The position numbers and the translations under genes were made by a program. Source: a virus. Taken from it: DNA of 24,655 bases. The DNA lies in the IMG/VR virus record IMGVR_UViG_3300008055_000366, positions 1-24,655 of that record, one strand, 5' to 3'. Of this stretch, positions 6,788-24,574 are shown piece by piece. The notes under the pieces are model-generated. The model was not told the DNA's origin, did no database searches, and was given only the letters and a program-made list of their open reading frames with translations. Within the stretch, counting starts at the first letter, position 1, and the number at the start of each line of letters is the position of its first letter.

Positions 6788-6791
6788 CACC

Positions 6792-9980: not shown

Positions 9981-10495
9981 TGAGTTTCTGGGATAAGTTC
10001 GAAAGCAAGCAGGACGGCATCGAGGACACGATTGAGTTTACGATCCGTATGGCTGTCGTCACGCTGGCGATGGTCATCCTCGTTGTGGTGGCTGCAATGG
10101 TCGCCGGGATGTTCGTTCCAAACGACGTTGTGGACAGCGACAAGGTGTTCGAGATCATTGGCCCCGCCTTCAACACCATCGTCGGCGCGTTTGTCGGTCT
10201 GCTTGGCGGCCTCTCGCTAAACGCCAACGCTCGCGACACTAAGCCCGAGGAACCGGCTCCAGTCGAGCCTGAGCCCGCTCCTGAGCCGGAACCCGCTCCA
10301 GAGCCTATGGCTCCGCCGCCTGCCCCTATGGTAGCGCCCGAGCCGGAACTCGAACTGACCGAGCCTGTCGAAGACGATGATGACGATGACATGGCCCCGT
10401 GGGAAAAGTACCGCAACGACCTACGCTATGACGCCAATGGCGATGGCGTGGTTGATGAAGCGGACTTCCCTGACTGGAGGAACCCAAACAAATGA
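9980..10495 (+). CDS. Holin-like membrane protein with Pro/Glu linker and EF-hand-like tail
   Basis: A 171-residue protein with two hydrophobic segments, about 25-46 (AVVTLAMVILVVVAAMVAG) and 57-80 (the VGAFVGLLGG region), the hairpin plan of class II holins. After residue 85 comes a Pro/Glu-rich linker (EPEPAPEPEPAPEPM), then an acidic run DDDDDD. The last 21 residues begin DANGDGVVDEAD, which fits the 12-residue EF-hand or dockerin calcium loop with Asp at positions 1, 5 and 12 and Gly at 6. ATG overlaps the preceding TGA, and its own stop overlaps the endolysin ATG (ATGA), so it is translated with the endolysin. The holin role is inferred from position and topology. The calcium-site tail is unusual for a holin. 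Confidence 0.6.
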   Translation: MSFWDKFESKQDGIEDTIEFTIRMAVVTLAMVILVVVAAMVAGMFVPNDVVDSDKVFEIIGPAFNTIVGAFVGLLGGLSLNANARDTKPEEPAPVEPEPAPEPEPAPEPMAPPPAPMVAPEPELELTEPVEDDDDDDMAPWEKYRNDLRYDANGDGVVDEADFPDWRNPNK

Positions 10496-11103
10496 GCCTC
10501 GTAAACCTACAGAAAAAGATCGGAGTAACGGCTGATGGTGCGTTTGGTCCAGGCACGCTTAAGGCGGCTGCCGCTTACTATAAGCTATCACCTAATCGCG
10601 CTGCGCATTTCTTTGCTCAAACTGCGCATGAAAGTGGCAACTTCAAAGCGTTCAGCGAAAACCTGAACTACGGATGGAAGGGTCTGCGCGGCATCTTTGG
10701 CAAGTACTTTCCGACTGAAGGCATGGCTAAGAACTATGAGCGCCAGCCGCAGCGCATCGCCAACCGCGTCTATGCCAATCGCATGGGCAATGGCGACGAA
10801 GCGTCAGGTGATGGCTGGCTGTACAGAGGCCGAGGCAGCCTCCAATTGACGGGCAAATTTAATTTCAAAGCGTTCTCGGACTACATCAATCGCCCGGACG
10901 TGATGACGAACCCGGATCTGGTAGCTACTGAACTGGCGTTTGAAAGCGCCCTGTGGTTCTTCGACAAGAACAAACTCTGGGGCATTTGCGATCAGGGCAT
11001 CAACGATGCTGCCATTCTTGCGCTCACAAAGCGTATCAATGGCGGCACGCACGGTCTCGATGACCGTAAAGCAAAGACCAAGAAATACGCTTCTTGGCTC
11101 TAA
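10492..11103 (+). CDS. Endolysin, glycoside hydrolase family 19 (chitinase/lysozyme-like)
   Basis: A 203-residue peptidoglycan hydrolase. The first 25 residues (LQKKIGVTADGAFGPGTLKAA) look like the end of a peptidoglycan-binding repeat, which leads straight into the GH19 catalytic domain. That domain shows FAQTAHESGNF with catalytic Glu 47, a LNYGWKGLRGIFGKYFP segment, YRGRGSLQLTGKFNF near 110-125, and a C-terminal ALTKRINGGTHGLDDR block. The family cleaves beta-1,4 glycosidic bonds; phage members degrade the host murein at lysis. There is no signal peptide or membrane segment, so it needs a holin, and its start overlaps the holin-like gene by four bases. The length is normal for single-domain phage GH19 endolysins. 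Confidence 0.92.
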   Translation: MSLVNLQKKIGVTADGAFGPGTLKAAAAYYKLSPNRAAHFFAQTAHESGNFKAFSENLNYGWKGLRGIFGKYFPTEGMAKNYERQPQRIANRVYANRMGNGDEASGDGWLYRGRGSLQLTGKFNFKAFSDYINRPDVMTNPDLVATELAFESALWFFDKNKLWGICDQGINDAAILALTKRINGGTHGLDDRKAKTKKYASWL

Positions 11104-11113
11104 GGAGATCAAC

Positions 11114-11278
11114 ATGAAGATCAAAAAACTTATCGGCGGCATTGCCGCCAAGGGCGTCATTGGCAAAACCTTAAAGTCAGGCTTGCCGCTGTCCGAAGCG
11201 AAGCCTGGCAGAGGCAAGATCGCAATTATTGTTGCCGCTATTGCAGCGGCTCTTGGGGTTGTTGCGAATTATCTTTGA
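11114..11278 (+). CDS. Small single-pass membrane protein downstream of endolysin
   Basis: A 54-residue gene with an excellent ribosome-binding site (TAAGGAG at 11101-11107, about seven bases before ATG 11114). The N-terminal half is basic and amphipathic (MKIKKLIGGIAAKGVIGK), followed by a Pro/Lys turn and one hydrophobic segment at about 35-53 (GKIAIIVAAIAAALGVVANY). Such proteins directly after an endolysin are often called holins or antiholins. With another holin candidate upstream, it could be an accessory or inhibitor. Its last 41 bases overlap the tail of the convergent DUF6378 gene on the other strand. Confidence 0.65.
   Translation: MKIKKLIGGIAAKGVIGKTLKSGLPLSEAKPGRGKIAIIVAAIAAALGVVANYL
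11234..11250. terminator. Possible weak hairpin between converging transcription units
   Basis: GCCGCT at 11234-11239 and AGCGGC at 11245-11250 form a perfect six-base stem with a five-base loop, inside the overlap of the two converging genes and covering the minus-strand stop codon. Neither side has a clear U-tract, so a true intrinsic terminator is doubtful. Confidence 0.25.
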
Positions 11279-12821: not shown

Positions 12822-12852
12822 GATATAGAGGACAAATCGACCTGCTTGTCAA
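12822..12852 (-). promoter_or_regulatory. Candidate leftward promoter after the SNF2-type helicase gene
   Basis: A perfect TTGACA (12852-12847, minus strand) lies at the end of the helicase gene. The best -10 candidate is TATATC (12827-12822) at a long 19-base spacing. CGCTTGACA is identical to the minus-strand -35 candidate at 21747-21739. A small inverted repeat (TCGAG/CTCGA, 12809-12823) sits at the expected start of transcription. Prediction only. Confidence 0.35.
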
Positions 12853-14198
12853 GCGTGCTTTTTTGGCTTCAAAGCATTTAAAAGCCTAGACTGCTGCGCG
12901 TCCTTGTCGGCAAGCACGTCCATCACGCGTTGGTCGATGCAGCCTTCCGCGATGATGTGAATAATGCGCACAGGCTTCTCTTGCCCTTGGCGGTGCAGAC
13001 GGGCGTTAAACTGCTGGTAAAGCTCCAGTGACCAGTTGAGGCCGAACCACACGATCATAGAACCCCCACGCTGGAGGTTGAGGCCGTGACCGGCTGATGC
13101 CGGGTGGGCGAACAGCAGCGGGATCTCGCCGTTGTTCCAGTCGAGCACGGTCTGCGGGTTCTTGTCCAGTGCACGTCCGTGCGGAAACGCCTTGAGCAAC
13201 CGCTCCAAGTCCGTCTTGTAGTTATAGGCCACAAGGATATTCTCACCCTCGTTCTGCTCGATCAGGTCTGCCAGCGCTTCGATCTTGACCTTATGCAGTT
13301 CAGCCCAATTGCCCTTGTCGTCCGTGTACATCGCCCCGTTGCACCACTGAAGCAGCTTGTTGGCGAGCACGGCTGCGCTGACAGCCTCGATCTCCTCACC
13401 TTCTGGCAGTTCGGCCAGCAGGTGCTTTTCAAACTCGCGGTATTCACGTAGCGTCGCAGCAGGGAGTTCGACCTTCTCAACCAGGTCAATGCGATCTGGC
13501 AGTTCGAGATAGTCCTCGGCCTTCATCGACATGGCAATGGGTTGCAGCAGCGCGTGGATTTTCTCAGCAGATCCTTCGCGAGGCACAAACTTATAACCCA
13601 TGTAATCGCTATCAAAGAAGCGCTGCTTGTAAGCCGTCATGGTGCGCCCTAGCCGCTCACCAAAGTCGATCAGATAAATCTGCGACCAGATGTCGAGAAG
13701 GCCGTTGGGGCTCGGTGTCCCTGTCAGCAGGATCATATACTCAGTATAAGGCAGAACCTTCTTAAGCGCCTTGAAGCGTTGGCTCGATGAGCTTTTGAAG
13801 CTGGAGGCTTCGTCGATTACAACGCAGTCAAAGGGCCATTTGTTCCCGTAGTTCTGAACTAACCATGCAACATTCTCACGATTGATGACGTAGATGTCGG
13901 CCTCGCGGGACAAAGCCGCGATGCGATTGCGCTCAGTGCCCGTGCAAATCGATACTTCGAGATGCGTCAGATGGTCCCAAATGCGCGTCTCTTGCAGCCA
14001 CACGCTGTTGGCAACGCGCAGAGGTGCGATCACCAGCGTCTTTTCGACAGCGAAGCCGTCACGCAGGTCGCTGATCGCGGTGAGCGTGGTGGTCGTCTTG
14101 CCGAGACCCATGGATAGGAACAGGGCGCAGCGCTTGCTCTTCAGGATGAAGTCAATGCCCTTGCGCTGGTATTCGTGGAGATCAGACCTGTAACGCAT
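12849..14198 (-). CDS. SNF2-type (DEAD/DEAH-like) superfamily 2 helicase
   Basis: The 449-residue product has the full set of SNF2 motifs: HEYQRKGIDF (Q-like), MGLGKTTTTL (motif I), VVIDEASSFK (II), LLTGTPSPNGLLDIWSQIYL (III), FAHPASAGHGLNLQ (V) and QFNARLHRQGQ (VI). Proteins of this size in phage replication modules use ATP to move along DNA; the exact role is not settled. The start at 14198 is preferred over 14207 because AGAGG sits directly against the first ATG but nine bases before the second. It overlaps the VRR-NUC gene by 17 bases. The neighbouring nuclease, polymerase and SSB place it in DNA replication or recombination. It is much shorter than cellular SNF2 remodellers, as usual for phage members. 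Confidence 0.93.
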   Translation of the reverse strand: MRYRSDLHEYQRKGIDFILKSKRCALFLSMGLGKTTTTLTAISDLRDGFAVEKTLVIAPLRVANSVWLQETRIWDHLTHLEVSICTGTERNRIAALSREADIYVINRENVAWLVQNYGNKWPFDCVVIDEASSFKSSSSQRFKALKKVLPYTEYMILLTGTPSPNGLLDIWSQIYLIDFGERLGRTMTAYKQRFFDSDYMGYKFVPREGSAEKIHALLQPIAMSMKAEDYLELPDRIDLVEKVELPAATLREYREFEKHLLAELPEGEEIEAVSAAVLANKLLQWCNGAMYTDDKGNWAELHKVKIEALADLIEQNEGENILVAYNYKTDLERLLKAFPHGRALDKNPQTVLDWNNGEIPLLFAHPASAGHGLNLQRGGSMIVWFGLNWSLELYQQFNARLHRQGQEKPVRIIHIIAEGCIDQRVMDVLADKDAQQSRLLNALKPKKHA

Positions 14199-14451
14199 TT
14201 CGCGCATCCTCTACGTTATCGCATACATATACTTCGACGCCCGCGTTGCGGATCTTGCCGATAATTCGCTCTTGCAGTTTCGTAGGCTTCTTTCCGGGTG
14301 CCTTGAACTCGATGAAGACGACGCGCCCGTCCTTGATAAAGATGCGGTCCGGCACCCCGCTGTTGGATGGCGAGACGAACTTGAAGACGAGCCAACCAGC
14401 CTCTTTGGCAGTACGGCATACGAAGCCTTCAATCGCGCTTTCCCTAAGCAT
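14182..14451 (-). CDS. VRR-NUC domain nuclease
   Basis: An 89-residue single-domain PD-(D/E)XK nuclease. The motif runs ESAIEGFVCRTAKEAGW, then SGVPDRIFI with the first catalytic Asp, then VVFIEFKAPGKKPTKLQ with the Glu-X-Lys pair, then a final helix and strand (NAGVEVYVCDNVEDA). VRR-NUC proteins are structure-specific nucleases, and stand-alone phage forms of about this length usually sit next to an SNF2-type helicase, as here. The start overlaps the polymerase stop by eight bases (ATGCTTAG) and the end overlaps the helicase gene, so the three genes are coupled. It probably processes branched replication or recombination intermediates. Confidence 0.92.
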   Translation of the reverse strand: MLRESAIEGFVCRTAKEAGWLVFKFVSPSNSGVPDRIFIKDGRVVFIEFKAPGKKPTKLQERIIGKIRNAGVEVYVCDNVEDARNALQV

Positions 14452-16204
14452 AGCCCACCTCCCACAGCAGTTTCTTGGCGCTCTCCTCGTAGACAGCGTA
14501 ATTCACGTCATCGGGGAAGCTGTCGGGTAGCGTCATGAGCGGCTTGGTGCCTTGGCTCTTGGGGACCTTATTGCCGTTCTTGACGTAATTGATCGTGGTC
14601 CCCGGATCGACAGCGTTGGAGTAATAGAAGCGCACGGCCTTCCCCAGATACTCGCCCTGCCACTCACCGCCCCCTTGGACGCGTCGCACAGTCACGAACT
14701 TCAGGATGTCGCGGCACTCGCGGATCGTCTTGCTGATCGGTGTCCCCTTGGCGATCCTGGCGGCAACTGCGTCATAGACGATCTGGCCGTCTGGGTTCTT
14801 CGCAAGACTGGACGGGGCAAAGATGCCTTTCCCCTTAACCGAGCCCTTGGGCTTAACGGCCACATAATTGTTCACGTCCCGGCTCGCGAGCGAGATATAG
14901 TCCGTGCGCTCCAGTTCGTAGCTGGTGCGCAGCATCCAATCCCACGCGATCTCCTCCATCGTCTGCTCTTGGCTCTTATCGCACAACAGGACAATTCCGT
15001 CGGTGTTGGCGCTCATGCAGCGGATGCCTGCGTCGGACATCATCTCGATCAGCATCAGCAACGCCAACTGGCCGGTGATCGTCGTCTGGATTAGAAGCTG
15101 TGGCGCGTAGAGGAAGCTGTAGCGTGAGCCCAGCTTGCCGAAGGTGCCGTTGACCGTAATCTTGAGCACGTCAGCCGTGACCTTATCGCCTGAGCGCTTG
15201 GCATCGATGCGTCGGTCCACGATCCTCTGATACACGTCTAGGAAGGCGTCACCCATCGAGGGCGGAGAGAGCCGCTGCTGGAGAATGATGTTGGGGTAGA
15301 AGCTGGCCACGTCCCAGTCAGACAGGACCATGCCAGCCGTTGTCTCGACATATTGCCGCTTCTCGCATGAGTGCAGACCACCAATCCCCATCTGGTACTT
15401 CACACCTCCAACCTCGACAGTGTCGCTCTCAAGCCATGAGGGCATCATTACAGCGCCTTTATCGCTCAGGCGGAACTCATGGGCCAGAATGCGCTCAAAC
15501 AGCTTCTGGAGGCTCTCAGAGCGGAACTCGATGATCTTGGGGTCTTTATACTTGAACCGCAGGTGCGGATTGAACTTGGGCTTGCCCAGCGTGTCGCCTG
15601 TCAGCGTCTCATACTCAGCCCGTAGGATCGCCTCTGCGATCTGCGCATCGCTCTTGGACCGCATGTCTACGCCATACTGATCTGACAGGCTGATGCGCAG
15701 GTCGATCTGCGGCTTCAACGTGTTGTAGAGCAGCGCTGTCGTCTCCAGGTCATTGACGCAGTAACGACGCAGCACCTCTCTTTGTTCCGGCGCGATCTCC
15801 GCATCCGGGTCAAAGGGCAAGTCTTGCAGCTTGGGCGCGCCTAAGCGTCCGCCATAAATCTTAAGGCTGGACTTCCCAATGGCCAGTTCGATCAGATCGA
15901 TGTGGTCCCAATTGGGCGGCAAGTTATAACCAAGCTGCCATGCGGGCTTGTCGTTGACGATGATGTCGTCGGCAAGTGCCTTGAGTTCCTCAGTGGTCGA
16001 GCCACTGGCAGCCGACACAAGAATGGGAATGTCGAAGTTGCGGCTGTTAAACCCAATACTTAAATTGGTGCGCAAGACGTTACGGAAGCTGTCATCAAGG
16101 GGATGTCCCTCGTACATCTCATAGTGCTTCACCCGGCCAGACGGCAGGTGCAGGGCAGACAGCAAAAAATAATTGCGATACACCTCGCAATCGATAACAA
16201 TCAT
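14444..16204 (-). CDS. Family B DNA polymerase with 3'-5' exonuclease domain
   Basis: A 586-residue replicative polymerase. The exonuclease domain shows Exo I (IDCEVY, Asp5/Glu7), Exo II (GFNSRNFD, Asn53/Asp58) and Exo III (YCVND, Tyr148/Asp152). The polymerase domain has motif A (DVASFYPNI, Asp298), motif B (KITVNGTFG, Lys348-Gly356) and motif C (SANTDGI), where the first of the usual two aspartates is Asn400 and only Asp402 remains. The start at 16204 (MIVIDCEVY) is preferred, since the open frame upstream runs into a strong stem-loop and adds residues before the conserved exonuclease strand. It is short for a family B enzyme and lacks an obvious terminal-protein domain. SSB and the nuclease genes are adjacent. 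Confidence 0.9.
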   Translation of the reverse strand: MIVIDCEVYRNYFLLSALHLPSGRVKHYEMYEGHPLDDSFRNVLRTNLSIGFNSRNFDIPILVSAASGSTTEELKALADDIIVNDKPAWQLGYNLPPNWDHIDLIELAIGKSSLKIYGGRLGAPKLQDLPFDPDAEIAPEQREVLRRYCVNDLETTALLYNTLKPQIDLRISLSDQYGVDMRSKSDAQIAEAILRAEYETLTGDTLGKPKFNPHLRFKYKDPKIIEFRSESLQKLFERILAHEFRLSDKGAVMMPSWLESDTVEVGGVKYQMGIGGLHSCEKRQYVETTAGMVLSDWDVASFYPNIILQQRLSPPSMGDAFLDVYQRIVDRRIDAKRSGDKVTADVLKITVNGTFGKLGSRYSFLYAPQLLIQTTITGQLALLMLIEMMSDAGIRCMSANTDGIVLLCDKSQEQTMEEIAWDWMLRTSYELERTDYISLASRDVNNYVAVKPKGSVKGKGIFAPSSLAKNPDGQIVYDAVAARIAKGTPISKTIRECRDILKFVTVRRVQGGGEWQGEYLGKAVRFYYSNAVDPGTTINYVKNGNKVPKSQGTKPLMTLPDSFPDDVNYAVYEESAKKLLWEVGYA

Positions 16205-16230
16205 GTAGCTAAGCCTAGAGCGAGGGGGGA

Positions 16231-16256
16231 TGGCTGGGAGCAAAAACTCCCAGCCA
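16231..16256 (-). other. Perfect 10-bp stem-loop between SSB and polymerase genes
   Basis: TGGCTGGGAG and CTCCCAGCCA pair without mismatch around a six-base loop. On the leftward transcript it follows the SSB stop codon by seven bases and is 26 bases before the polymerase ATG. No U-tract follows (the next bases are TCCCCCCTCG), so it is not a standard intrinsic terminator; mRNA stabilisation, processing or partial attenuation are possible. Confidence 0.7.
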
Positions 16257-16263
16257 CTTTACG

Positions 16264-16794
16264 TCAAAACGGGAAGTCTTCCCCGTCGTCATCACCAATG
16301 TCATCAAAGTCATCGACGCTGACCTTAGCCCCGCCGTCACCGAATGATTCACCATCCTTGACGAACTGGACGCCCAGCAGGTTCGCGTTGATACGCTTAC
16401 CATAGCCGTTGTTCTGAGCCCAGAGTTCGACAAATGCGTTCACATAGCAACCAGCATATAGGACGTTATCGTCTTCGGTGAGAGGAGACTTGTCCTTGTT
16501 GATTACCAGCGGGCGCTTGCCGTTGCTGGCCTTGATCGACATCTTGCCTTCGTAGCCATCATAATCGATGTTGTCGCCATCCTTCAGACAGATCTTATCG
16601 GGCCCAAGCTTGGCACCCTTGAGGTCGTCCTTAATCTTGGCGGCAATGCCTTCTTGAAGCTGCTTGATGATGCCAGCGTGTTCTTCCTTGTCCAGCAGGA
16701 AGGTGGCTTCGTACTTCGTCTCAGCCCCTTCAAACTTGGCCTTGTGGAACAGGCTGGGGAACGAGAGACGGACATTCTTCAGTTGATACTTCAT
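16264..16794 (-). CDS. DUF2815-type single-stranded DNA-binding protein
   Basis: A 176-residue protein with the DUF2815 pattern: KNVRLSFPSLFHKAKFEG at the start, YEATFLLDKEEH, a lysine-rich middle with DNIDYDGYEGKMSIKASN, then LYAGCYVNAFVELWAQNN. The tail is acidic and ends DDDGEDFPF, as in SSB proteins, where the last residues recruit partner enzymes. The family has an OB-like fold and coats single-stranded DNA at the phage fork. An AAGGA site lies about nine bases before ATG. It follows the DUF2800 nuclease by 91 bases containing one stem-loop and is followed by another before the polymerase, so its message may be separately controlled. Confidence 0.92.
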   Translation of the reverse strand: MKYQLKNVRLSFPSLFHKAKFEGAETKYEATFLLDKEEHAGIIKQLQEGIAAKIKDDLKGAKLGPDKICLKDGDNIDYDGYEGKMSIKASNGKRPLVINKDKSPLTEDDNVLYAGCYVNAFVELWAQNNGYGKRINANLLGVQFVKDGESFGDGGAKVSVDDFDDIGDDDGEDFPF

Positions 16795-16885: not shown

Positions 16886-17998
16886 TCAGAAATCGTCCGC
16901 AGTGATGTTCACTGCGGGTCGGCCATCGGACACGGGGGCAAGCACCGGCTTGCCTTCAGGCTTGACGATCAAGTTCTCGATCATCGTTGCCTTCTGCTTC
17001 CCGAGCGTCTTCTCCGCTTGGGCTGGGCTCACCAGCTTGCGCGTGAAGGCGTTATCACCAAGCAACTCGAACAGAGCCTGCTCGGCAATCTCTTCGTTGC
17101 CCCACTGACGTAGGGAACGTCCTGCCACCAGCTTGTATCCAGCAAATCCCTTGCCGGACCACAGGCGTTCAGTGGCATATTCTTCAATGGCGTCGAACCA
17201 GCCGATAATCATCTTGCGCTGGTCGAGGACGCGAGACATCTCTTCCTCAGTCAGACGGCTGATCGGCTTCATCTCGTCGATGTTGTCGAAGGCCGACAGG
17301 ATCACGCTTTCGGTGTGCTTCATCAGCGCACGACAGGTCGGCTTGGCCTTGCACCACAGGCATTGCTTCTCGCCAGGGTTGAACTCGGCATTGTCCTCAA
17401 GGCACAGAGTAGCGCGCTGGTTAACCCACTCGCCCCACTTCAGCAGATCGCCAATGTCGATGGTCCACTCGCTGATGTGGTCAAGGCGCGGCTGGACGAT
17501 GTTGATGATGACTGTCTTGATCTCAGAGACGAAGCTATAGTCGTGATAGGCTCCAAGGGCGTAGAGCATCCCTTGGCTGTTATTCTCAGCGTCAACCTTC
17601 ACGCCCTTGCCGAACTTGAGGTCGATCACGCGCATGGTGTCGTCTTCAATGATAAGCGCGTCGCAGGTGCCAAAGCCTTCGGGAACCCAGTCGGAGAAGT
17701 CTACGCGGGTCTCGTAAGTCGCCCAACCCTTGTGGCTGCGCACGAAGTCCACATAAATCTGCGTGTCGTTCGCCATCTCAGCGGTGACGACAACCTTGCT
17801 CTCAGGCAGTTCCTGGCCGACATACTCGTCGCAGTTCTTAGCTTCTTTGAGGGACATCTCGGCAAGCTCGTGGGCGGCTGTGCCCTCAAGGGCAAACTCA
17901 CTACCCTTGTCCTCAATGCCTTCCTCAGCGGCAACAGATGCCGGACAGGCCAACCAGCGATGCGAGCCGCTGGCACTTAGTTTAGCGTGTAACGTCAT
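16886..17998 (-). CDS. DUF2800 nuclease (RecB/Cas4-like PD-(D/E)XK with cysteine cluster)
   Basis: A 370-residue protein of the DUF2800 family. The start LSASGSHRWLACPAS carries Cys18, then GTAAHELAE (His43) gives the RecB-like first motif. GTCDALII (Asp113) and MRVIDLKFGKG (Asp126/Lys128) form the catalytic D...DxK core, and NIVQPRL has the family Gln169. CLWCKAKPTC adds Cys213, 216 and 222, so with Cys18 there are four cysteines placed as in Cas4/AddB-type iron-sulphur nucleases. An exonuclease role in recombination or replication is known for the fold but inferred for this protein. An AAAGGA site lies within the last codons of the upstream glycosyltransferase gene. Confidence 0.92.
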   Translation of the reverse strand: MTLHAKLSASGSHRWLACPASVAAEEGIEDKGSEFALEGTAAHELAEMSLKEAKNCDEYVGQELPESKVVVTAEMANDTQIYVDFVRSHKGWATYETRVDFSDWVPEGFGTCDALIIEDDTMRVIDLKFGKGVKVDAENNSQGMLYALGAYHDYSFVSEIKTVIINIVQPRLDHISEWTIDIGDLLKWGEWVNQRATLCLEDNAEFNPGEKQCLWCKAKPTCRALMKHTESVILSAFDNIDEMKPISRLTEEEMSRVLDQRKMIIGWFDAIEEYATERLWSGKGFAGYKLVAGRSLRQWGNEEIAEQALFELLGDNAFTRKLVSPAQAEKTLGKQKATMIENLIVKPEGKPVLAPVSDGRPAVNITADDF

Positions 17999-18002
17999 GC
18001 TT

Positions 18003-19100
18003 TTATCCTTTCGTTTCAGTTTTTAATTTTTCAGCGTAGGCTTTAGGATAAATTGTCTTGTTCTGAAAGTCAATCCCGCTGAGTTCTGCAAAATCACGCA
18101 GGGTGCGCACCTTGCCAAGGCCGTAAGAACCAAGGTCTTTGCCGTGAAACAACAGGTCCTCGAGGCGCTTTTCCGCCTGTTTGTGCCTCTTGGTCCATTT
18201 CACATTACGCTCTTTTTCGTGCTCGCTGTTCCAGTGGAGGCTATCGCTGCTGGTCTCGGAAGACTTATAAAGATGATAGAGCGGCATATACTTGTCGGAT
18301 GGGTGCAGGATCGTCCAGCCATGCGTGAAAGCCCGCACCGCTAAGTTCTGCTCTTCACCCTCGAAATATAGCTGAGGGTCATAAGGCACCTCATCGACGA
18401 ACGCGCCAGACGTAAAGATGAAGCCGCCTGCGATATGAAAGCCTTCTTTGAACGAAGGGCCAGTTTCGTAATAAACTTTGACCCCGTAGTTGATGCCCTT
18501 CGTTTCAAAGCTCGCTGTCGGCAATAGCGCCATCATGTAGACAGAGCCATTGCGATTGGTTGACCATACTGGCTTACCATCCTTGATCTTAAAGGGGATC
18601 GGGTAAGTCGTGATGATCGGCTTATCTACCTTCTTGCTCACCAGCGCATATGCGTCGAGCAGGGTGCGGTCCCATGCCGGGTCAAAGATCGTGTGGCTGT
18701 CGATCTGGAAATAGAAGTCTTCGCCCTCGTATAGAGAGCTTGCTAGGTTCCTTGCCCAAGCGGCTCCACGCGACTGGCGATGATCGGCATTGAGATAGCG
18801 GATCTTATCCCAATAAGGCTTCTTACGCAGCCAGCCGAGGTTATTATGGTCGCTCTGGTCAAAGAGGCCCACGCGCAAGTTCTGCGGCAGCATGGCGTTT
18901 GCGAACAGGCTGTCGAGCGTTAGCTCTAGGTGCGGCTCACAATAGGCAGCAACGTTGACGAAGATCGTCTTGTCGAGAGGCGGCAGTTTGATTTTGCCGC
19001 TCAGAATAGCGTTCATTGCCTGATCGGCACCGTCTTTACGGGCCTTTGCCAGGGCTTCCTCTAGCGTGGTGCGGATGGTGGCTAATGAATTGTTCGACAT
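18003..19100 (-). CDS. GlcNAc-transferase-like glycosyltransferase
   Basis: A 365-residue protein with the pattern of the 'Glycosyltransferase (GlcNAc)' family related to Skp1 GlcNAc-transferase. It has TIFVNVAAYCEPHLELTLDSLF, NLRVGLFDQSDH, SRGAAWARNLASSLYEGEDFYFQIDSH (metal-binding Asp134-Ser-His136 in place of DxD), a FHIAGGFIFTSGAFVDEVPYDPQLYFEGEEQNLAVRAFTHGW acceptor region, and MPLYHLYK near the end. No membrane segment or signal is seen, so it acts in the cytoplasm. It sits directly upstream of the DUF2800 nuclease, inside the early replication operon, unlike most phage glycosyltransferases, which are near tail genes. Its acceptor could be a modified DNA base, a protein or a sugar; this is open. 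The ribosome site is weak. Confidence 0.85.
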   Translation of the reverse strand: MSNNSLATIRTTLEEALAKARKDGADQAMNAILSGKIKLPPLDKTIFVNVAAYCEPHLELTLDSLFANAMLPQNLRVGLFDQSDHNNLGWLRKKPYWDKIRYLNADHRQSRGAAWARNLASSLYEGEDFYFQIDSHTIFDPAWDRTLLDAYALVSKKVDKPIITTYPIPFKIKDGKPVWSTNRNGSVYMMALLPTASFETKGINYGVKVYYETGPSFKEGFHIAGGFIFTSGAFVDEVPYDPQLYFEGEEQNLAVRAFTHGWTILHPSDKYMPLYHLYKSSETSSDSLHWNSEHEKERNVKWTKRHKQAEKRLEDLLFHGKDLGSYGLGKVRTLRDFAELSGIDFQNKTIYPKAYAEKLKTETKG

Positions 19101-19116
19101 AAAATATGTAACCTAA

Positions 19117-19281
19117 TTACCAACCGCCAGAGGATTGTCTATCGGCTTTCTTCGTCTCGCCCATGCCGCTTAGGAACAGCCTGAGTTCATAAGGCAGATC
19201 GTCGTTCTCGGTCTTGGGCATGAACTTAGCTAAGTAGCTGTCTGGTATCTTGTTGCCACCATACCATGCGGGTTTACTCAT
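19117..19281 (-). CDS. Hypothetical protein, 54 residues
   Basis: ATG at 19281 is chosen because it overlaps the stop of the upstream small gene (ATGAGTAA, eight bases); the longer frame upstream is the shadow of that gene. The protein reads MSKPAWYGGNKIPDSYLAKF followed by a charged helix (DDLPYELRLFLSGMGETKKA) and a Gly/Ser/Trp end. I recognise no family. The gene ends 16 bases before the glycosyltransferase ATG, so it belongs to the same transcript. Confidence 0.55.
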   Translation of the reverse strand: MSKPAWYGGNKIPDSYLAKFMPKTENDDLPYELRLFLSGMGETKKADRQSSGGW

Positions 19282-19411
19282 CCTCTTCCTCGTCTTCCTC
19301 GTCCTCTGCGTCTTCCTTTGCGCAGACTGGGCAGTCGTCGCCTGCTTCACAGAACCACCCGTCATCGGTGTAATAAGGGCGGTGTTCCGGCTCACTAAAG
19401 TAATAGGTCAT
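19274..19411 (-). CDS. Small cysteine-containing acidic protein, 45 residues
   Basis: Read directly from the minus strand: ATG at 19411, TAA at 19276-19274. The sequence starts MTYYFSEPEHRPYYTDDGW, then FCEAGDDCPVC with cysteines at 21, 27 and 30, and ends with EDAEDEEDEEEDE. Three cysteines plus nearby His could bind a metal in a knuckle, and the acidic tail is extreme for its length. It overlaps the genes on both sides by four and eight bases, which argues that it is translated. I do not know the family. Acidic tails of this kind occur in DNA-mimic anti-restriction proteins, but the match is only in charge. Confidence 0.6.
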   Translation of the reverse strand: MTYYFSEPEHRPYYTDDGWFCEAGDDCPVCAKEDAEDEEDEEEDE

Positions 19412-19599
19412 TTCTCTAAGGTCTCTCTTGCTAGTTGCATGGGCTTAGGCCAGCCGCCCGCGATGCGCTTGAGGGCGTCTTGCAGCCGTTCGATCTCTAC
19501 CTCTTGGGCTTCGATGCGGTCTGCGGCCAATTTCAATTCTGGGTGGTCCATCCAGCATTTGCGAAGGATGAAGACTAATTCCTTATCTTTATGCGTCAT
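19408..19599 (-). CDS. Hypothetical coiled-coil protein, 63 residues
   Basis: The start at 19599 (MTHKDKELVFILRKCW) is preferred to an upstream in-frame start because GGAG lies eight bases before it and the ATG sits within the end of the upstream gene. The product has a helical core LAADRIEAQEVEIERLQDALKRI, a typical short coiled coil, then GGWPKPMQLARETLEK. The 'aADRIEelexelerl' core is widespread in small phage early proteins, and the neighbouring gene has a similar EEAADRIEELTKAL segment, which hints at duplication or a shared partner. Overlaps of 11 bases upstream and four downstream suggest coupling. Function unknown. Confidence 0.65.
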   Translation of the reverse strand: MTHKDKELVFILRKCWMDHPELKLAADRIEAQEVEIERLQDALKRIAGGWPKPMQLARETLEK

Positions 19600-19825
19600 C
19601 GTCTTCTCCGCAGTAAATCTTTTGGTCGGGACCAAAATAAATCTTAGTCGCTGCGTCGATCATGCCCGGTACAGTAAGCGGGTTACCACCAACCTGCACA
19701 GTGAAGCGCACGTCATTGACAAACCAGCCAAGTGCCTTGGTTAACTCTTCGATGCGGTCTGCGGCTTCTTCCATCGGCCACACAGGCATGTCGCGTAGAG
19801 CTTCCAAAAGTTCTTCGTCAGTCAT
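19589..19825 (-). CDS. Hypothetical protein, 78 residues
   Basis: The start at 19825 (MTDEELLEALRDMP) forms an ATGA overlap with the stop of the upstream gene; the frame continues upstream, but the overlap start is more likely. The N-terminal half is a helix with EEAADRIEELTKALGWF, like the coiled-coil core of the next gene. The second half is a small beta-like region (VRFTVQVGGNPLTVPGMIDAATK) and the end is acidic (CGEDDDA). Such ADRIEEL proteins are frequent in phage early regions with no assigned role. Confidence 0.65.
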   Translation of the reverse strand: MTDEELLEALRDMPVWPMEEAADRIEELTKALGWFVNDVRFTVQVGGNPLTVPGMIDAATKIYFGPDQKIYCGEDDDA

Positions 19826-20229
19826 TCTGGCTCTTCCCCATTTGCGTTGCGGAACATCCACGCTTTGGCATATGCACGGGCATCGTCAGGCTTCTGCCCC
19901 ATCGCCCGTTGATTATGGAATATCCAAATCTCTAGCGATTGTTTCAAATCCTCAATCTCTGCCGCTTGGGCTTCGATGAGGTCGGTAAACAAACCGCAAA
20001 CCGATGCAGCTATGGCCGTCAAGTTAATCTCTCCGCCTGTCCCTGCCCAGTCATCGACTGCGGGGTCGGGATGGATTGGCTGCGCGTTCATCTGCTTGCC
20101 AAATTCCGCCTTGATGGTCAGCGCCACGGCTTCGATCAGGTCGTCAGTCATCTTATCCCCCTCGCAGTCGCACCATGCGCGTAGGTCGCCCATCCGGACC
20201 ACAGCGCAGCCCGGATGGTGCGCGCCCAT
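19822..20229 (-). CDS. Hypothetical protein with possible internal second start
   Basis: The 135-residue frame starts at ATG 20229, overlapping the upstream TAA (TAATG). Its first 26 residues (MGAHHPGCAVVRMGDLRAWC, then DCEGDK) contain His4, His5, Cys8, Cys20 and Cys22, a possible small metal site. Then comes MTDDLIEAVALTIKAEFG at residue 27, preceded at DNA level by a strong AGGGGG site, so a 109-residue product starting at 20151 is equally plausible. The remaining part has helices, a LFTDLIEAQAAEIEDLKQSL coiled coil and an ARAYAKAWMFRNANGEEPE end. It may be two ancestral small genes joined in frame, or one gene with two starts. Function unknown. Confidence 0.6.
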   Translation of the reverse strand: MGAHHPGCAVVRMGDLRAWCDCEGDKMTDDLIEAVALTIKAEFGKQMNAQPIHPDPAVDDWAGTGGEINLTAIAASVCGLFTDLIEAQAAEIEDLKQSLEIWIFHNQRAMGQKPDDARAYAKAWMFRNANGEEPE

Positions 20230-20408
20230 TAGCCTTGGATGCTCAAGGGGCAAATGTTGGCCCCTACGTTCAGGACAGTGCCGTTCTGATAGCGGCAGAA
20301 ATGCTGGCCGCGATCATACCATTGGCTCACGAGGAAATACGTCATGCCTTGTGCCAGGGCGGGGGTCGCCATTGTGGCCAACACGATTGCGATAATTACT
20401 TTCTTCAT
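20229..20408 (-). CDS. Small secreted protein, 59 residues
   Basis: Read directly from the minus strand. MKKVIIAIVLATMATPALA is a clear Sec signal peptide with cleavage after residue 19. The mature 40-residue part (QGMTYFLVSQWYDRGQHF, then CRYQNGTVLNVGANICPLSI) has two cysteines that could form a disulphide. I recall similar 'VSQWYxxGxxFCRYxNGTVLNVGxxxCPLSI' small proteins in many phages, where they have no assigned role. It overlaps the previous gene by four bases (ATGA) and the next by one (TAATG). An early phage gene exporting a small periplasmic protein could alter the envelope or exclude other phages, but that is inference. Confidence 0.75.
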   Translation of the reverse strand: MKKVIIAIVLATMATPALAQGMTYFLVSQWYDRGQHFCRYQNGTVLNVGANICPLSIQG

Positions 20409-20653
20409 ATCGTTTTACCTTTCTTGATTTTCACCTTTACCGCGCCTCTGGCGTAGGTCTCGAACTCATCAAGTTCTTCCTGCGTCATCGGGCGATAGAC
20501 TTTCTTGGTTAAGTATATGGCAGCCGCCAGCTTCATCGAGCCTTCGATAAGGTTTTCAAATTCTGTGCTCTGCCTTGGATACAGCCGTGCTGCATCCTTG
20601 GCCAAAAGCTTCGACGGCTTGTCGTATTTGCGTGCTGATGCACCTCTTATCAT
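20405..20653 (-). CDS. Hypothetical basic protein, 82 residues
   Basis: The protein begins MIRGASARKYDKPSKLLAKD, contains a helix EFENLIEGSMKLAAAIYLTKKV and ends in a charged stretch with KVKIKKGKTI. It is strongly basic at both ends and has no cysteines or membrane segment. I know no family. It begins ten bases after the HhH-membrane gene, without a strong ribosome site, and its stop overlaps the start of the secreted protein gene by four bases. Nucleic-acid binding would fit the charge but is not shown by any motif. Confidence 0.55.
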   Translation of the reverse strand: MIRGASARKYDKPSKLLAKDAARLYPRQSTEFENLIEGSMKLAAAIYLTKKVYRPMTQEELDEFETYARGAVKVKIKKGKTI

Positions 20654-20663
20654 ATCAAATCAT

Positions 20664-21017
20664 TCACACTAGCAGTTGGCTGATAATGTAGACCATAAGG
20701 GCTATCACTGCGAATATGCAGATAGTTGTGATGAAGTCACTGGCCCTAAATGATGGGCGATGGTCGGGCTCGACAATTCGCCACTCAGGTTCTCTTATCA
20801 AGTTCAGTCTCAGAGCATCAAAGACCTTCTGGCGGATGGCGATGGCGCGCTTGAGGCCAATGCCCTTAACGTCCGCCACCAAGTCATCAGGTTCAGCGTC
20901 CAGCACATCGCCAGCGCAGTGATAGCCAGCGCGATGCAGATCATCGAGAAGGCGGCTCTTCGGCATGATCTCAGTCAACAGGACGTAGCGCCATGCGTGA
21001 GATAAGTTATCAGTCAT
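20664..21017 (-). CDS. Helix-hairpin-helix protein with a C-terminal membrane anchor
   Basis: A 117-residue protein in two parts. Residues about 20-70 (SRLLDDLHRAGYHCAGDVLD, then DDLVADVKGIGLKRAIAI) resemble the DNA-binding helix-hairpin-helix pair found in RNA polymerase alpha C-terminal domains and repair proteins, with the second hairpin as VKGIGLKRA. After a polar linker (PEWRIVEPDHRPSFRASD), residues 95-117 form one strongly hydrophobic segment (FITTICIFAVIALMVYIISQ) that ends the protein. A DNA-binding domain tethered to the membrane is unusual. It overlaps the upstream 55-residue gene by eight bases. The HhH call rests on pattern only and could be a protein-binding variant. Confidence 0.6.
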   Translation of the reverse strand: MTDNLSHAWRYVLLTEIMPKSRLLDDLHRAGYHCAGDVLDAEPDDLVADVKGIGLKRAIAIRQKVFDALRLNLIREPEWRIVEPDHRPSFRASDFITTICIFAVIALMVYIISQLLV

Positions 21018-21177
21018 CGGTATGTTCCTTAATTAATTTGCGGACCTTCACTAGCGCGTTGAGCAATTCAGGGTCGTCGCCCTCGTCATGTCCCCAAAGA
21101 AGTTGAAGTTCGATGAGGGCGTTCTCGATGGCTTTCTCAATGTCTCTCAGCGCATTTGCAGTATCGGTATGGTCCAT
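21010..21177 (-). CDS. Small acidic helical protein, 55 residues
   Basis: Read directly from the minus strand: ATG at 21177, TGA at 21012-21010. The sequence is MDHTDTANALRDIEKAIENA, then LIELQLLWGHDEGDDPELLN, then a helix ALVKVRKLIKEHTDD. It is helical with an acidic turn, without cysteines. It overlaps the HhH-membrane gene by eight bases and lies 13 bases after the 41-residue membrane protein gene. The overlap and clean helical pattern support translation. I recognise no family. Confidence 0.55.
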   Translation of the reverse strand: MDHTDTANALRDIEKAIENALIELQLLWGHDEGDDPELLNALVKVRKLIKEHTDD

Positions 21178-21190
21178 AATAAATCTTCTT

Positions 21191-21316
21191 TCATCGCTTT
21201 AAGAAGCGGCCCTTCTTGTCGCGCTTCTGGTAGGGACGATGGATAGCGCGAATACAGTAACCAGCGACGCCAGCACCAACCATCATTATCAGTTGAAGTA
21301 TAATCTCACTCACCAT
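21191..21316 (-). CDS. Very small membrane protein, 41 residues
   Basis: Read directly from the minus strand. ATG 21316 is preceded by AGGAG at a seven-to-eight-base spacing, the best ribosome site in this part of the operon. Residues 4-23 (EIILQLIMMVGAGVAGYCIR) form one membrane segment, and the end is very basic (RPYQKRDKKGRFLKR), so the tail should face the cytoplasm. Small membrane proteins expressed early in phages can act in superinfection exclusion or inhibit host envelope processes; which applies here is unknown. It is 27 bases after the 112-residue gene. Confidence 0.55.
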   Translation of the reverse strand: MVSEIILQLIMMVGAGVAGYCIRAIHRPYQKRDKKGRFLKR

Positions 21317-21343
21317 CGTCTTCTCCTCTCACCAATATGGGCC

Positions 21344-21682
21344 TTAGCCCTCAAGATCGGCCAACTTGGCCGACAACTCATCCAGCTTGCTCTCCGGCAC
21401 ACCCTTGATGGTCTTGCTGCCGTAGCTCTCAAGCAGGTCTAAAATGGCTGTGCGCATCGCCTTGGGGTCCTTGCGCGCTAGTGCGCGGCACCGGTTCTCC
21501 ATGTCTGCGATCTTGTCAGCAGCAGTCGCTGCCTTAGTCTCTGGCGCTTGTGTCGGCTCCGGTGCCGCCTTGGGCTTTGCCGGTGCCTTCGTCTGCTCAG
21601 GTGCAGGAACAGGTTGTTCGCCCATGACCGCAGTCAGTCGGTCAATGGCTGCAATCAGTTCGTCGATCTTATTTTCAATCAC
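21344..21682 (-). CDS. Phage early protein with Pro/Ala/Lys-rich linker, first gene of leftward operon
   Basis: A 112-residue protein beginning at GTG 21682, eight bases after an AAAGG site. The N-terminal helix (MIENKIDELIAAIDRLTAVM) is followed by a flexible linker (PVPAPEQTKAPAKPKAAPEP) and a helical C-terminal domain ending DLLESYGSKTIKGVPESKLDELSAKLADL. I know this layout (short coiled coil, Ala/Pro/Lys linker, small 'LLxxYGxxKxxxxPExxLxxF' domain) from proteins located near recombination and SSB genes in many phages; its role there is not established. It is the first gene after the divergent promoter region, so it is the earliest product of the operon. Confidence 0.7.
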   Translation of the reverse strand: MIENKIDELIAAIDRLTAVMGEQPVPAPEQTKAPAKPKAAPEPTQAPETKAATAADKIADMENRCRALARKDPKAMRTAILDLLESYGSKTIKGVPESKLDELSAKLADLEG

Positions 21683-21709: not shown

Positions 21710-21739
21710 TTGACAACGTAACCGCAATCTCGGTAGGGT
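21710..21739 (+). promoter_or_regulatory. Candidate rightward promoter for HTH and primase-helicase genes
   Basis: TTGACA (21710-21715) matches the sigma70 -35 consensus exactly; TAGGGT (21734-21739) at an 18-base spacing keeps the most conserved first, second and last -10 bases. It would start transcription about 35 bases before the HTH ATG. The whole 97-base gap holds only this region and the opposing promoter. Prediction only. Confidence 0.4.
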
Positions 21740-21744
21740 GTCAA
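21715..21744 (-). promoter_or_regulatory. Candidate leftward promoter for the early/replication operon
   Basis: On the minus strand TTGACA (21744-21739) is again a perfect -35 box, and TACGTT (21720-21715) at 18 bases is a weak -10 box with the three key bases. It overlaps the rightward candidate almost completely, so use of one would exclude the other. ACCG/CGGT (21721-21724 and 21731-21734) adds an inner inverted repeat. Prediction only. Confidence 0.4.
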
Positions 21745-21779
21745 GCGATCACCGGAAATATTTTAGGACATCTCTTGAA

Positions 21780-21950
21780 ATGATGACATTAGACGAGATT
21801 ATCGAAGCCCTTGCAGACCGCAAGCCTGGTGTCGTGGCTGAAGCCACGGGCCTTAGCTATGACACTGTATGGCGGGTGGCATCGGGGAAGACTAAGCGTG
21901 TCAGCTATGAGACCGCTAAGATTTTGTCGGATTATCTGTCCGCCAAGTAA
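21780..21950 (+). CDS. Small helix-turn-helix protein (Cro-like), 56 residues
   Basis: The ATG at 21780 has an AGGA site 11 bases upstream; a longer GTG start at 21738 would lie inside the promoter region and is unlikely. The protein MMTLDEIIEALADRKPGVVA, then EATGLSYDTVWRVASGKTKR, shows a helix-turn-helix: ALADRKPGVVAEATGLSYDTVWRVASG, with recognition helix SYDTVWRVASG, then a closing helix VSYETAKILSDYL. It resembles the short phage regulators of type 'aLaDRrptVVAEATGLsydTlwrI'. It is the first rightward gene, 35 bases before the primase-helicase, and next to the divergent promoters it probably controls. It has no partner domain. Confidence 0.8.
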   Translation: MMTLDEIIEALADRKPGVVAEATGLSYDTVWRVASGKTKRVSYETAKILSDYLSAK

Positions 21951-21985: not shown

Positions 21986-24574
21986 ATGAAATATAAGATC
22001 GCGCTTGGCGTGGACATGGGGACAGTCGAGAACCGCGAACTCGACTGGGACAAGATCACTGAGCGTTTATCGCGTCATAGTGTCGCTGTGACCAAGGGCG
22101 GGCGTTACCTTGTTGGTGGGCAGTTTGCCGATCATCGTCGCCAAGAAACGTCTCTTGTCTGTCGGTCGATGCTGACCATCGACATCGACAAGCTTCCTGA
22201 GGGCGTCGATATTGTCGATCTGGAAAGCGATCTGGTGCTGTCCGTCCCTTATGCCTTTGTTGCCTATTCCACGTTCTCGCACACGCCTGACACGCCACGC
22301 ATCCGTCTGATCGTGCCGCTGTCGCGGGATGTCTCGCCCGGTGAGTATCGCGAGGTCTCGCGTGATTTCGTCGGCACATTGTCTGAGGTTGTCCAAGAGG
22401 CAATTGATAAGTGTTCGTTCGTCCCTAACCAGTTCATGTATATGCCCATCTGCCCTGACATGGGCTCGGCATGGGCCTATGTGCAGGATGGCGATGCCTA
22501 TCCTGTGCCCGATCAGGTGCTGGGCGATTATGCCAAGGCAGAGAAGAAGCGCGCTAAGCCCTCTGGCGTTGCGCCCCTGTTGGACTTGGATGCCGTTGAG
22601 GCTGTTGAGGCTGTCGTCGCTGACACTGTTGTTGCTGAGGATGAGGCCGACATTGACGATCTGGCCGATGCTGTCGCCAATGAGCCGCTCGATCTGTCTG
22701 ATGACGAGGTGGACGCATATTTGCGCGTCTATCGCGCTGAGGGCTTGGAATATGACCAATGGCTGATGGTGGGGGCTGCTCTTAACCATCAGTATCGACG
22801 CAGTGAGACGGGCTATCAGCGTTGGCTTGCTTGGTCTAAACTGTCGTCCAAGCACGACGAGACGCAAATGCGCGTCAAATGGCGCTCGTTCGGCAAGGGA
22901 ACCACGTTCTCGCTGGTCACCTTCAAGTCGGTTATCTTCCTCGCCAAAGAGATGGGCGATGTGGCTCTGCGCGAGGATCGCGCTGCTGCCCGTGAGGGTG
23001 AGGGTGGTGTCGCCTCTCTGCCAGCCAAGGCTATGGTGGAGTTGGAAGCCTTCGAGGCGCTTGCTGAGGCTGCCAGTGAGGTCGATAGCGTCGAGACATA
23101 CGATGCGTTCAAGGCTCGGCTCCAGCGCATCTCGCTTCATATCTTGCCCGTAGATAAGCGTTCGATGCTTGCCCAAGAGGTTTACGATGGATGGGGCAAG
23201 GGCAAGGGCTTGACTAAGAGCGACATCAAGGCCGCTATCCAGCCTCCTAAGGCGGGTAAGGGCGCGCTTGCTGAGGCGCGGGATGCTGCCAAGCGTGATC
23301 TGCCTGAGTGGCTCGACGGGTGGGTCTACATCGGTGTCCCTGCTGAGTTCTATAATATGCGCGATCACTACGCCCTCAAGCGTGAGGCGTTTGATGCGTT
23401 CTTTGGCCGCGAGATCGAGGTTGTCGCGGCTGAGGTGCCAGCGTCTAAGCTTGCCCTCAATGATTACTGCATCGACACCCTCGTCGATCTGATGTTCTGG
23501 CCAGGCGCTGGCATCACGTTTGATTACGAGGGCAAGCGTATGCTCAACACCTATCGCGAGACGGGCATCGGCCCTTGCGTTGAGATGGATGCGGATGGGC
23601 AGTCTGTCGTCGATCTGTTCTTGCGTCATGTTCGTTTCCTGCTCGCTGATGACAGTGAGCAGCGGATGCTGATCGATTTCATGGCTTGGGTTGTCCAAAA
23701 TCCTGGGCAGAAAGTGAATTGGTCGCTGGTCATCCAAGGCGCACAGGGGGTTGGTAAGTCGTATTTCGGCCATGTCATGATGATGGTGCTGGGCGATATG
23801 GCGCGTAACGTTGAGCCGTCATCTCTTGCTGGGCGTTTCACAGGCTGGGCGCATGGCGCAACGCTTGTGGTGATCGAGGAAATCCGTGTCACGGGTGAGA
23901 ACCGATACGAGATCATTGACCGCCTGAAGCCGTTTATCTCCAATGCCACCATCCAGATCGAAGAGAAGGGCCGCGACCATCGCACTGTGCCTAACTTCAC
24001 GTCCTATCTGATGTTCACCAATCACAAGGACGCTCTGCCCCTTGGTGCTGGCGACAGGCGTTACGCCCCTGTGTTCTCTCGCGTCCAGTCTGAGGCGATG
24101 CTCTTTGAAGAGCTTGGCGGTGAGGCCGAAGCGGGTGAGTATTTTAATCGCCTGTTCTCTGAGAGCCAGCGTAGGGCCGATGCGCTGTCCTTGTTCCTGC
24201 GCCAATGGAAGGTGTCAGGGGAGTTCAACGCCAAGGGACGCGCTCCACACACCAAGGCGCGTGATCTGATGATGGGTCTGGCAGTGTCGCCTGAGCGTAG
24301 GGCTGTTGAGGATGCTCTTGTTAAGCACGAATGCGCGATCATTGGAGACAAGCTAGTCGATGTGACTTGGCTTGCCATGCTTTGCGATATTGAAGGCGGG
24401 GAAGGCTTGCCACGGACGCGCACCCTGTCGGCTGTGATGCTTGATATGGGATATGAACAGATCGATGGGGGCCGGGTGTGGATCGGTAAGAACAAGCGGT
24501 TCCACTATGTCTGGCAGAGGGGCTTTGGTGGGGATGCTAAGGAAGCCGTGAAGGCTTACCATGACGGCGATTGA
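21986..24574 (+). CDS. Primase-helicase (AEP-type primase, PriCT, superfamily 3 helicase)
   Basis: An 862-residue replication initiator or fork protein. The N-terminal part has the pattern of the archaeo-eukaryotic primase core of D5-like phage proteins: LTIDIDKLPEG followed by FVAYSTFSHTPDTPRIRLIVPLSRD and CSFVPNQFMYMP. Residues about 236-310 (VDAYLRVYRAEGLEYDQWLM, then GYQRWLAWSKLSSKHDETQM) look like a PriCT-2 linker domain. The C-terminal helicase has Walker A GAQGVGKS (585-592), Walker B TLVVIEEI (Glu631/632), a LKPFISNATIQIEEKGRD sensor region and a YLMFTNHKDALPLGAGDRRY arginine-finger segment, as in DUF5906/VirE-type helicases. It can both prime and unwind. GAGG lies ten bases before ATG. 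A long open frame on the opposite strand is a coding shadow. Confidence 0.92.
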   Translation: MKYKIALGVDMGTVENRELDWDKITERLSRHSVAVTKGGRYLVGGQFADHRRQETSLVCRSMLTIDIDKLPEGVDIVDLESDLVLSVPYAFVAYSTFSHTPDTPRIRLIVPLSRDVSPGEYREVSRDFVGTLSEVVQEAIDKCSFVPNQFMYMPICPDMGSAWAYVQDGDAYPVPDQVLGDYAKAEKKRAKPSGVAPLLDLDAVEAVEAVVADTVVAEDEADIDDLADAVANEPLDLSDDEVDAYLRVYRAEGLEYDQWLMVGAALNHQYRRSETGYQRWLAWSKLSSKHDETQMRVKWRSFGKGTTFSLVTFKSVIFLAKEMGDVALREDRAAAREGEGGVASLPAKAMVELEAFEALAEAASEVDSVETYDAFKARLQRISLHILPVDKRSMLAQEVYDGWGKGKGLTKSDIKAAIQPPKAGKGALAEARDAAKRDLPEWLDGWVYIGVPAEFYNMRDHYALKREAFDAFFGREIEVVAAEVPASKLALNDYCIDTLVDLMFWPGAGITFDYEGKRMLNTYRETGIGPCVEMDADGQSVVDLFLRHVRFLLADDSEQRMLIDFMAWVVQNPGQKVNWSLVIQGAQGVGKSYFGHVMMMVLGDMARNVEPSSLAGRFTGWAHGATLVVIEEIRVTGENRYEIIDRLKPFISNATIQIEEKGRDHRTVPNFTSYLMFTNHKDALPLGAGDRRYAPVFSRVQSEAMLFEELGGEAEAGEYFNRLFSESQRRADALSLFLRQWKVSGEFNAKGRAPHTKARDLMMGLAVSPERRAVEDALVKHECAIIGDKLVDVTWLAMLCDIEGGEGLPRTRTLSAVMLDMGYEQIDGGRVWIGKNKRFHYVWQRGFGGDAKEAVKAYHDGD

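Follow-up and report, generated by a model that had tools for sequence, protein, structure and literature searches.

A GT60-type glycosyltransferase gene carried as cargo at the head of a phage replication operon, and its possible action on proteins

Organization of the locus

The DNA considered here, referred to below as the window, is an entire IMG/VR record, a linear fragment of 24,655 bases that represents part of a genome. A leftward operon of replication genes is headed by an inserted stretch that includes a glycosyltransferase gene, and an early region is transcribed divergently from it. The features of this region are as follows.

12849 to 14207, minus strand: SNF2-type helicase (Pfam)
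14182 to 14451, minus strand: VRR-NUC nuclease (Pfam)
14444 to 16243, minus strand: DNA polymerase, phrog_1252 (E 5.9e-188)
16264 to 16794, minus strand: Enc34/Gp2.5-type ssDNA-binding protein (E 3.8e-35; Pfam, PHROG)
16886 to 17998, minus strand: DUF2800 / PD-(D/E)XK nuclease (E 2.8e-108; Pfam, PHROG)
17999 to 21343, minus strand: inserted cargo stretch of 3,345 bp, from the coil gene to DUF2800, with seven ORFs
18003 to 19100, minus strand: PF11397 (GT60-like) GT-A glycosyltransferase, 365 aa (ORF list, Pfam, PHROG, alignment, model)
18975 to 19100, minus strand: N-terminal extension of that enzyme, residues 1-42, a predicted helical hairpin (helices 3-23 and 25-34; alignment A1, model)
19117-19395, 19408-19635, 19589-19861, 19822-20253, 20405-20653 and 20664-21017, minus strand: six small ORFs of the inserted stretch
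21344 to 21682, minus strand: conserved coiled-coil-type gene, a marker of the operon head
21738 to 21950, plus strand: Cro/CI-type regulator of the divergent early region
21986 to 24574, plus strand: primase-helicase (PriCT-2, DUF5906, VapE-like), divergent to the operon (Pfam)

The glycosyltransferase ORF starts with ATG and its frame is open. A 92-aa ORF precedes it by 16 bp, and 4 bp separate it from the DUF2800 gene downstream. Genes for the ssDNA-binding protein, the DNA polymerase, VRR-NUC and the SNF2 helicase follow on the same strand, overlapping slightly or standing no more than 91 bp apart. An earlier note on this DNA had placed the gene inside the replication operon, immediately ahead of those for the DUF2800 nuclease and the ssDNA-binding protein, and this placement is borne out. 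Because of its place at the start of the leftward operon, the gene is probably expressed early along with the replication proteins, as judged from position alone; a promoter scan gave results at about chance level, and a terminator scan was slightly above chance.

How usual is this arrangement? Gene order was compared across 86 DUF2800 loci, namely the best 80 of at least 538 confirmed (from 599 candidate stretches) and six more. A profile of the enzyme found a PF11397-type gene in none of the 86, its sole match being the window's own ORF, and the six small ORFs likewise have no counterpart in any of them. Whole-record searches of 14 relatives of the module also found no PF11397 match, while all four positive controls were matched. 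Homologs of the coiled-coil-type gene occur in 13 of the 86 loci, where the gap to DUF2800 is 8 bp or less in ten and 220-223 bp in three, as against 3,345 bp in the window; in Vibrio phage LP.1 and contig L009, the coil gene sits at the place equivalent to 21344-21682 and adjoins DUF2800. Of the 79 loci in which a primase was found, 77 have 265-1,497 bp between primase and DUF2800; the window has 3,987 bp. Since relatives mostly have DUF2800 directly beside the coil gene, and the enzyme is missing from all 86 loci, the glycosyltransferase is an accessory (cargo) gene, placed where a divergently transcribed operon begins, next to a Cro/CI-type regulator.

The two outliers in the primase-DUF2800 interval measure 4,388 bp, in BPP-1, and 5,831 bp, in locus L147. 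The BPP-1 slot (L019:6647-7576) holds bbp36 with its annotated variable region VR2, and L147:614-5187 is a second expanded slot between primase and DUF2800, occupied by ORFs with repeated units.

The enzyme and its predicted fold

The product of the 18003-19100 ORF matches PF11397, 'Glycosyltransferase (GlcNAc)', with E 6.8e-47 and 161.1 bits against a cut-off of 21 (Pfam), well above chance, and it also matches phrog_24687, 'glycosyltransferase' (E 3.8e-40). The earlier note's reading of a GlcNAc-transferase-like gene was therefore right, and its coordinates were exact. The catalytic domain spans residues 42 to 354 approximately and carries the motifs QxDSH (132-136) and GEE (248-250) as well as H276. 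In an alignment of 30 diverse homologs, this protein among them, 19 columns are invariant, including Q132, D134, S135, H136, W143, D144, G248, E250, R256, T259, G261 and H276, and every invariant family residue is present in the window enzyme. Its GC3 and codon fit are slightly lower than those of the DUF2800, polymerase and helicase genes. Taken together, the ORF encodes an intact, soluble-looking glycosyltransferase of the GT-A type belonging to PF11397, a family that we take to be CAZy GT60.

The N-terminal extension is missing in the five phage homologs of alignment A1. Its blocks were modeled with pLDDT 63-71, giving modest confidence in the predicted hairpin, and an internal Met29 provides a possible alternative start.

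The AlphaFold model of the whole product has a pLDDT of 84.8 and a pTM of 0.84. When it was compared with the PDB by Foldseek, the best 30 rows were all polypeptide GalNAc-transferases, and in VIA-align the 29 best entries were again polypeptide GalNAc-transferases (Z 19.3-22.0, 255-296 residues aligned, rmsd 3.1-4.0). Among the matches listed, the next group comprises LARGE1, K4 chondroitin polymerase, B4GALNT1, SpsA and TarP, all with Z of 16.9 or lower, so that the polypeptide GalNAc-transferases stand at least 2.4 Z above every other entry listed. DNA glycosyltransferases are absent among the 50 VIA-align entries listed. Sequence searches of the PDB found no convincing related chain, and the best BFVD rows were 'Glycosyltransferase, GlcNAc' proteins of uncultured phages.

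The polypeptide GalNAc-transferases of family GT27 bind Mn2+ through a DSH motif and a distal His, both of which are found in the window enzyme too. This family, of which human GalNAc-T2 and T. gondii GalNAc-T3 are examples, gives the model its best structural match, reaching Z 22.0 over 267 residues, and the window enzyme looks as if it works in the GT27 manner. Identity across the structural alignment is only 13-17%, however, and the alignment to GalNAc-T2 stops at residue 354 of 365; Pfam finds no ricin-type lectin domain in the window enzyme, which for this reason is not filed in GT27. A fold that the model appears to share with polypeptide GalNAc-transferases is also no proof of the acceptor, as enzymes of surface glycans have the GT-A core at Z 15-17.

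Relatives and their genomic settings

A profile scan of viral contigs for the PF11397 enzyme returned at least 559 confirmed loci from 599 candidate stretches, of which the best 80 were kept. Among 50,697 phage records in INPHARED, by contrast, only three have a relative, at 26-28% identity: XacN1 ORF334 (AP018399), RAS14 and CM1. These are jumbo phages whose homologs differ from the window enzyme in being longer, with a C-terminal addition, and the XacN1 copy adjoins a carbamoyltransferase gene. A genome scan yielded three loci, the best at 41% identity in Thiomicrospira microaerophila. This stand-alone PF11397 gene (L101:6995-7975) is the nearest known relative among the matches listed.

In a tree of 30 rows, the window enzyme groups with the Thiomicrospira gene and nine phage rows, and this clade of 11 is supported (98/96). 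The clade contains six distinct phage contexts, and four of these, the window counted, are settings of replication or nucleotide metabolism: the DUF2800 and ssb genes in the window, an adjoining DNA polymerase B gene in L021, an adjoining ribonucleotide reductase gene in L024, and a nearby DNA polymerase A gene with a weakly DUF2800-like nuclease in L025/L030 (Pfam was run on L027; L025 is a near copy). In the other two contexts, the neighbors are a 2OG oxygenase amid head-type genes (L022) or a 536-538 aa ORF, read as a terminase in three of the loci L023, L035, L037 and L038, with an SU10-type portal (tested in L035). The weak DUF2800 relative in L027 is the nuclease-like ORF at 9972-10688.

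The earlier note had also set the window gene apart from glycosyltransferase genes that alter host surface sugars and often lie near tail genes. That generalization suits the long-form relatives, which have Ser/Thr-rich, structural-looking neighbors and other glycosyltransferases nearby, but not the window enzyme's own clade, in which the setting is usually one of replication, nucleotide metabolism or head genes. What stands out most in the earlier remark is that replication settings recur within the clade, and this recurrence would also fit a DNA-related role.

A protein as the probable acceptor

Members of GT60 include Gnt1, which acts on hydroxyproline of Skp1, and the polypeptide GlcNAc-transferase of T. 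cruzi, according to the account in PMC6939170. The window enzyme resembles these eukaryotic proteins in that it matches the profile along most of the domain, and in the QxDSH, GEE and HxY motifs; it differs in its N-terminal helical extension, in its place in a phage operon, and in that no prolyl hydroxylase was seen among the window ORFs scanned. Considering that the predicted fold is closest, by a clear margin, to polypeptide GalNAc-transferases and that the characterized GT60 members glycosylate proteins, a protein acceptor is favored over DNA. The earlier note had left the choice between modified DNA bases and a host protein, and of these two branches it is the protein branch that gains from the fold and from GT60 activities.

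We therefore lean, with some reserve, toward an accessory, probably early enzyme that resembles protein O-HexNAc-transferases. Acquired with the small ORFs where the leftward operon begins, the gene would probably be expressed beside the replication proteins. By analogy with the family, the donor would most likely be UDP-GlcNAc or another UDP-HexNAc, Mn2+ would most likely be held by the DxH motif, and the sugar would most likely be placed, with retention, on a protein hydroxyl (Ser, Thr or hydroxyproline). A host or phage protein, rather than DNA, would then be the acceptor.

Which protein might this be? Phages do carry glycoproteins. Mycobacteriophages Che8 and Rita have glycan-carrying phage (capsid) proteins and glycosyltransferase genes in their genomes, as described in PMC11256854, but they are different phages. 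For XacN1, the proteomics in PMC5852040 shows no fewer than two glycoproteins in the virion, which, in the view of the authors, the phage's two glycosyltransferases may make.

Ser/Thr-rich genes, defined by an 80-residue stretch with at least 50% S+T, were counted around the enzyme in 84 loci forming 43 clusters (L102 and L103 left out). Near the enzyme of long-form relatives, they make up 8 of 78 adjacent genes, compared with 5 of the 422 that lie at least three places off (Fisher 1.7e-4, which is not a true probability because the loci are related and not independent), and all five such neighbors that were scanned match phrog_15511. The adjacency is a trait of the long-form clade, not of the window enzyme's own clade. 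A separate count, with a Ser/Thr-rich frame in 19 of 86 enzyme loci versus 2 of 86 DUF2800 loci, is confounded by genome region and was not relied on. The enzyme in L002 lies near a collagen-like tail-fiber gene.

The window itself has one Ser/Thr-rich candidate, 10 kb from the enzyme and on the opposite strand.

6759 to 7886, plus strand: Ser/Thr/Asn-rich, exported-looking protein, a speculative candidate acceptor

This protein has a signal-peptide-like start and about 239 residues of Ser/Thr/Asn repeats with 46% S+T. Its C-terminal domain is 61-66% identical to proteins of pelagiphages (HTVC023P, HTVC202P, Mosig and others), and in the three of these that were examined the repeats are absent or cover a short stretch. 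PF11397 was found in none of six phages that carry this C-terminal domain (six of ten records tested). As a sure acceptor the protein was therefore rejected, and it is kept as a guess.

The 539-aa product of the ORF at 7850-9469 (plus strand) includes a long acidic region and, judged by eye, probably a signal peptide; it has no match in PHROGs or NCBIfam. For the structural protein at 2461-5037, no relative was found in the phage collection.

A different lead comes from oxygenase genes in relatives. An ORF resembling 2OG-Fe(II) oxygenases overlaps the start of the enzyme ORF in L022 (1246-1740) and L039 (6501-6995), the L022 match being below the Pfam cut-off and the L039 ORF appearing the same by eye, and in L025 a similar ORF (1866-2504) lies about 0.7 kb upstream of the enzyme. 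The pairing of such an oxygenase with a GT60-type enzyme recalls, by analogy, the prolyl 4-hydroxylase and Gnt1 of the Skp1 pathway. As a general rule the partnership was rejected, since PF13640 is above the cut-off in only 9 of 50 records (49 of the best 80 enzyme loci plus L002), all within L024-L034; it is kept as a lead. Pfam scans of ten window ORFs gave no match to a 2OG-Fe(II) oxygenase.

Perhaps these phages possess a counterpart of the eukaryotic cytosolic O-GlcNAc pathway that acts on hydroxyproline or Thr. The early enzyme might O-glycosylate a specific host replication, transcription or defense protein during takeover, or else the phage's own mucin-like 6759-7886 protein, and some relatives might create the acceptor site with a prolyl-hydroxylase-like oxygenase that they encode themselves. 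This extended proposal is speculative, and we regard it as doubtful.

Other possible roles

According to a common view of phage glycosyltransferases (PMC7824862), the enzyme would instead change host surface sugars (LPS, capsule), early or in lysogeny, and so block adsorption of rival phages, a form of superinfection exclusion. An accessory, operon-borne gene suits such a function. The L025/L027/L030 block of the same clade contains an FkbM methyltransferase (Pfam match in L027) and an ORF that by eye resembles a second glycosyltransferase, though Pfam finds no match for it, the XacN1 relative lies near genes for a carbamoyltransferase, HtrL_YibB and a family-9 glycosyltransferase, and TarP, TarS and KfiA have the same fold, albeit with lower scores. 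Set against this, the best-scoring fold group is protein-modifying, and the enzyme gene stands alone: no flippase, GtrB-like or sugar-biosynthesis gene was recognized among the ORFs of the inserted stretch. Serotype-conversion gtr clusters differ in having an adjacent gtrA flippase and gtrB, whereas the neighbors here are small ORFs and DUF2800. Action on surface sugars is thus a possibility to be kept in mind, although we think it rather unlikely.

Could the substrate be modified bases (hydroxymethyl-pyrimidines) of the phage DNA? Like the phage DNA glycosyltransferases (T4 alpha/beta-GT, TAGT), the gene lies among DNA enzymes, as its relatives do in most contexts of the clade, and a hydroxymethylase could be encoded in the part of the genome beyond the fragment. 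The 141-kb record of L024, in which the PF11397 enzyme sits in the ribonucleotide reductase block, also encodes a TAGT-family enzyme 117 kb away. PF11397 and TAGT (PF20691) are separate families, however, and the window protein has no TAGT match. A search of the whole window record with PF20691 was empty, while the control and the L024 record were matched, and hmmscan gave no TAGT match either. The earlier note saw no base-modifying enzyme in the window; Pfam and PHROG results for the ORFs scanned are in accord with this, and no base-hydroxylating partner was seen in the fragment. PF12851 (Tet_JBP) matched in 0 of 21 records, the window record included in these empty searches, in which no control was matched either. 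PF00303 was found in 3 of 50 records, namely XacN1, L082 and the enzyme-less module relative L012, and hence in 2 of 45 enzyme-carrying records (a hand-picked 43 of the best 80 loci plus L002 and L005, with the window record left out). The T4 DNA glucosyltransferases have a GT-B fold, unlike the window enzyme. In the work described in PMC5852040, BssHII, NaeI and SpeI served to map the DNA of XacN1, a phage that has a PF11397 relative. Glycosylation of DNA bases by the window enzyme is accordingly disfavored and, in our judgment, improbable.

That the gene is a passenger, currently useless to the phage and caught before decay, might be suggested by its sporadic occurrence (0 of 86 and 0 of 14 relatives) and its slightly low codon fit and GC3, but with invariant residues intact, an open frame and tight operon spacing, we find this highly improbable.

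Implications and a further observation

Phage glycosyltransferases are usually labeled as DNA- or LPS-modifying without test. PF11397 enzymes are common in uncultivated phages and rare in deposited phage records, as the counts above indicate, and within the literature searched, the accession was found in work on a brown alga alone. If members of the family do glycosylate proteins in the bacterial cell, they would constitute a phage route of protein O-glycosylation resembling the one that modifies Skp1 in protists, and a two-gene system open to direct testing would be at hand in the oxygenase-transferase pairs.

In L007, ORFs at 9590-10333 and 10652-11191 that resemble GIY-YIG and HNH homing endonucleases (by eye) lie among the polymerase, VRR-NUC and helicase genes.
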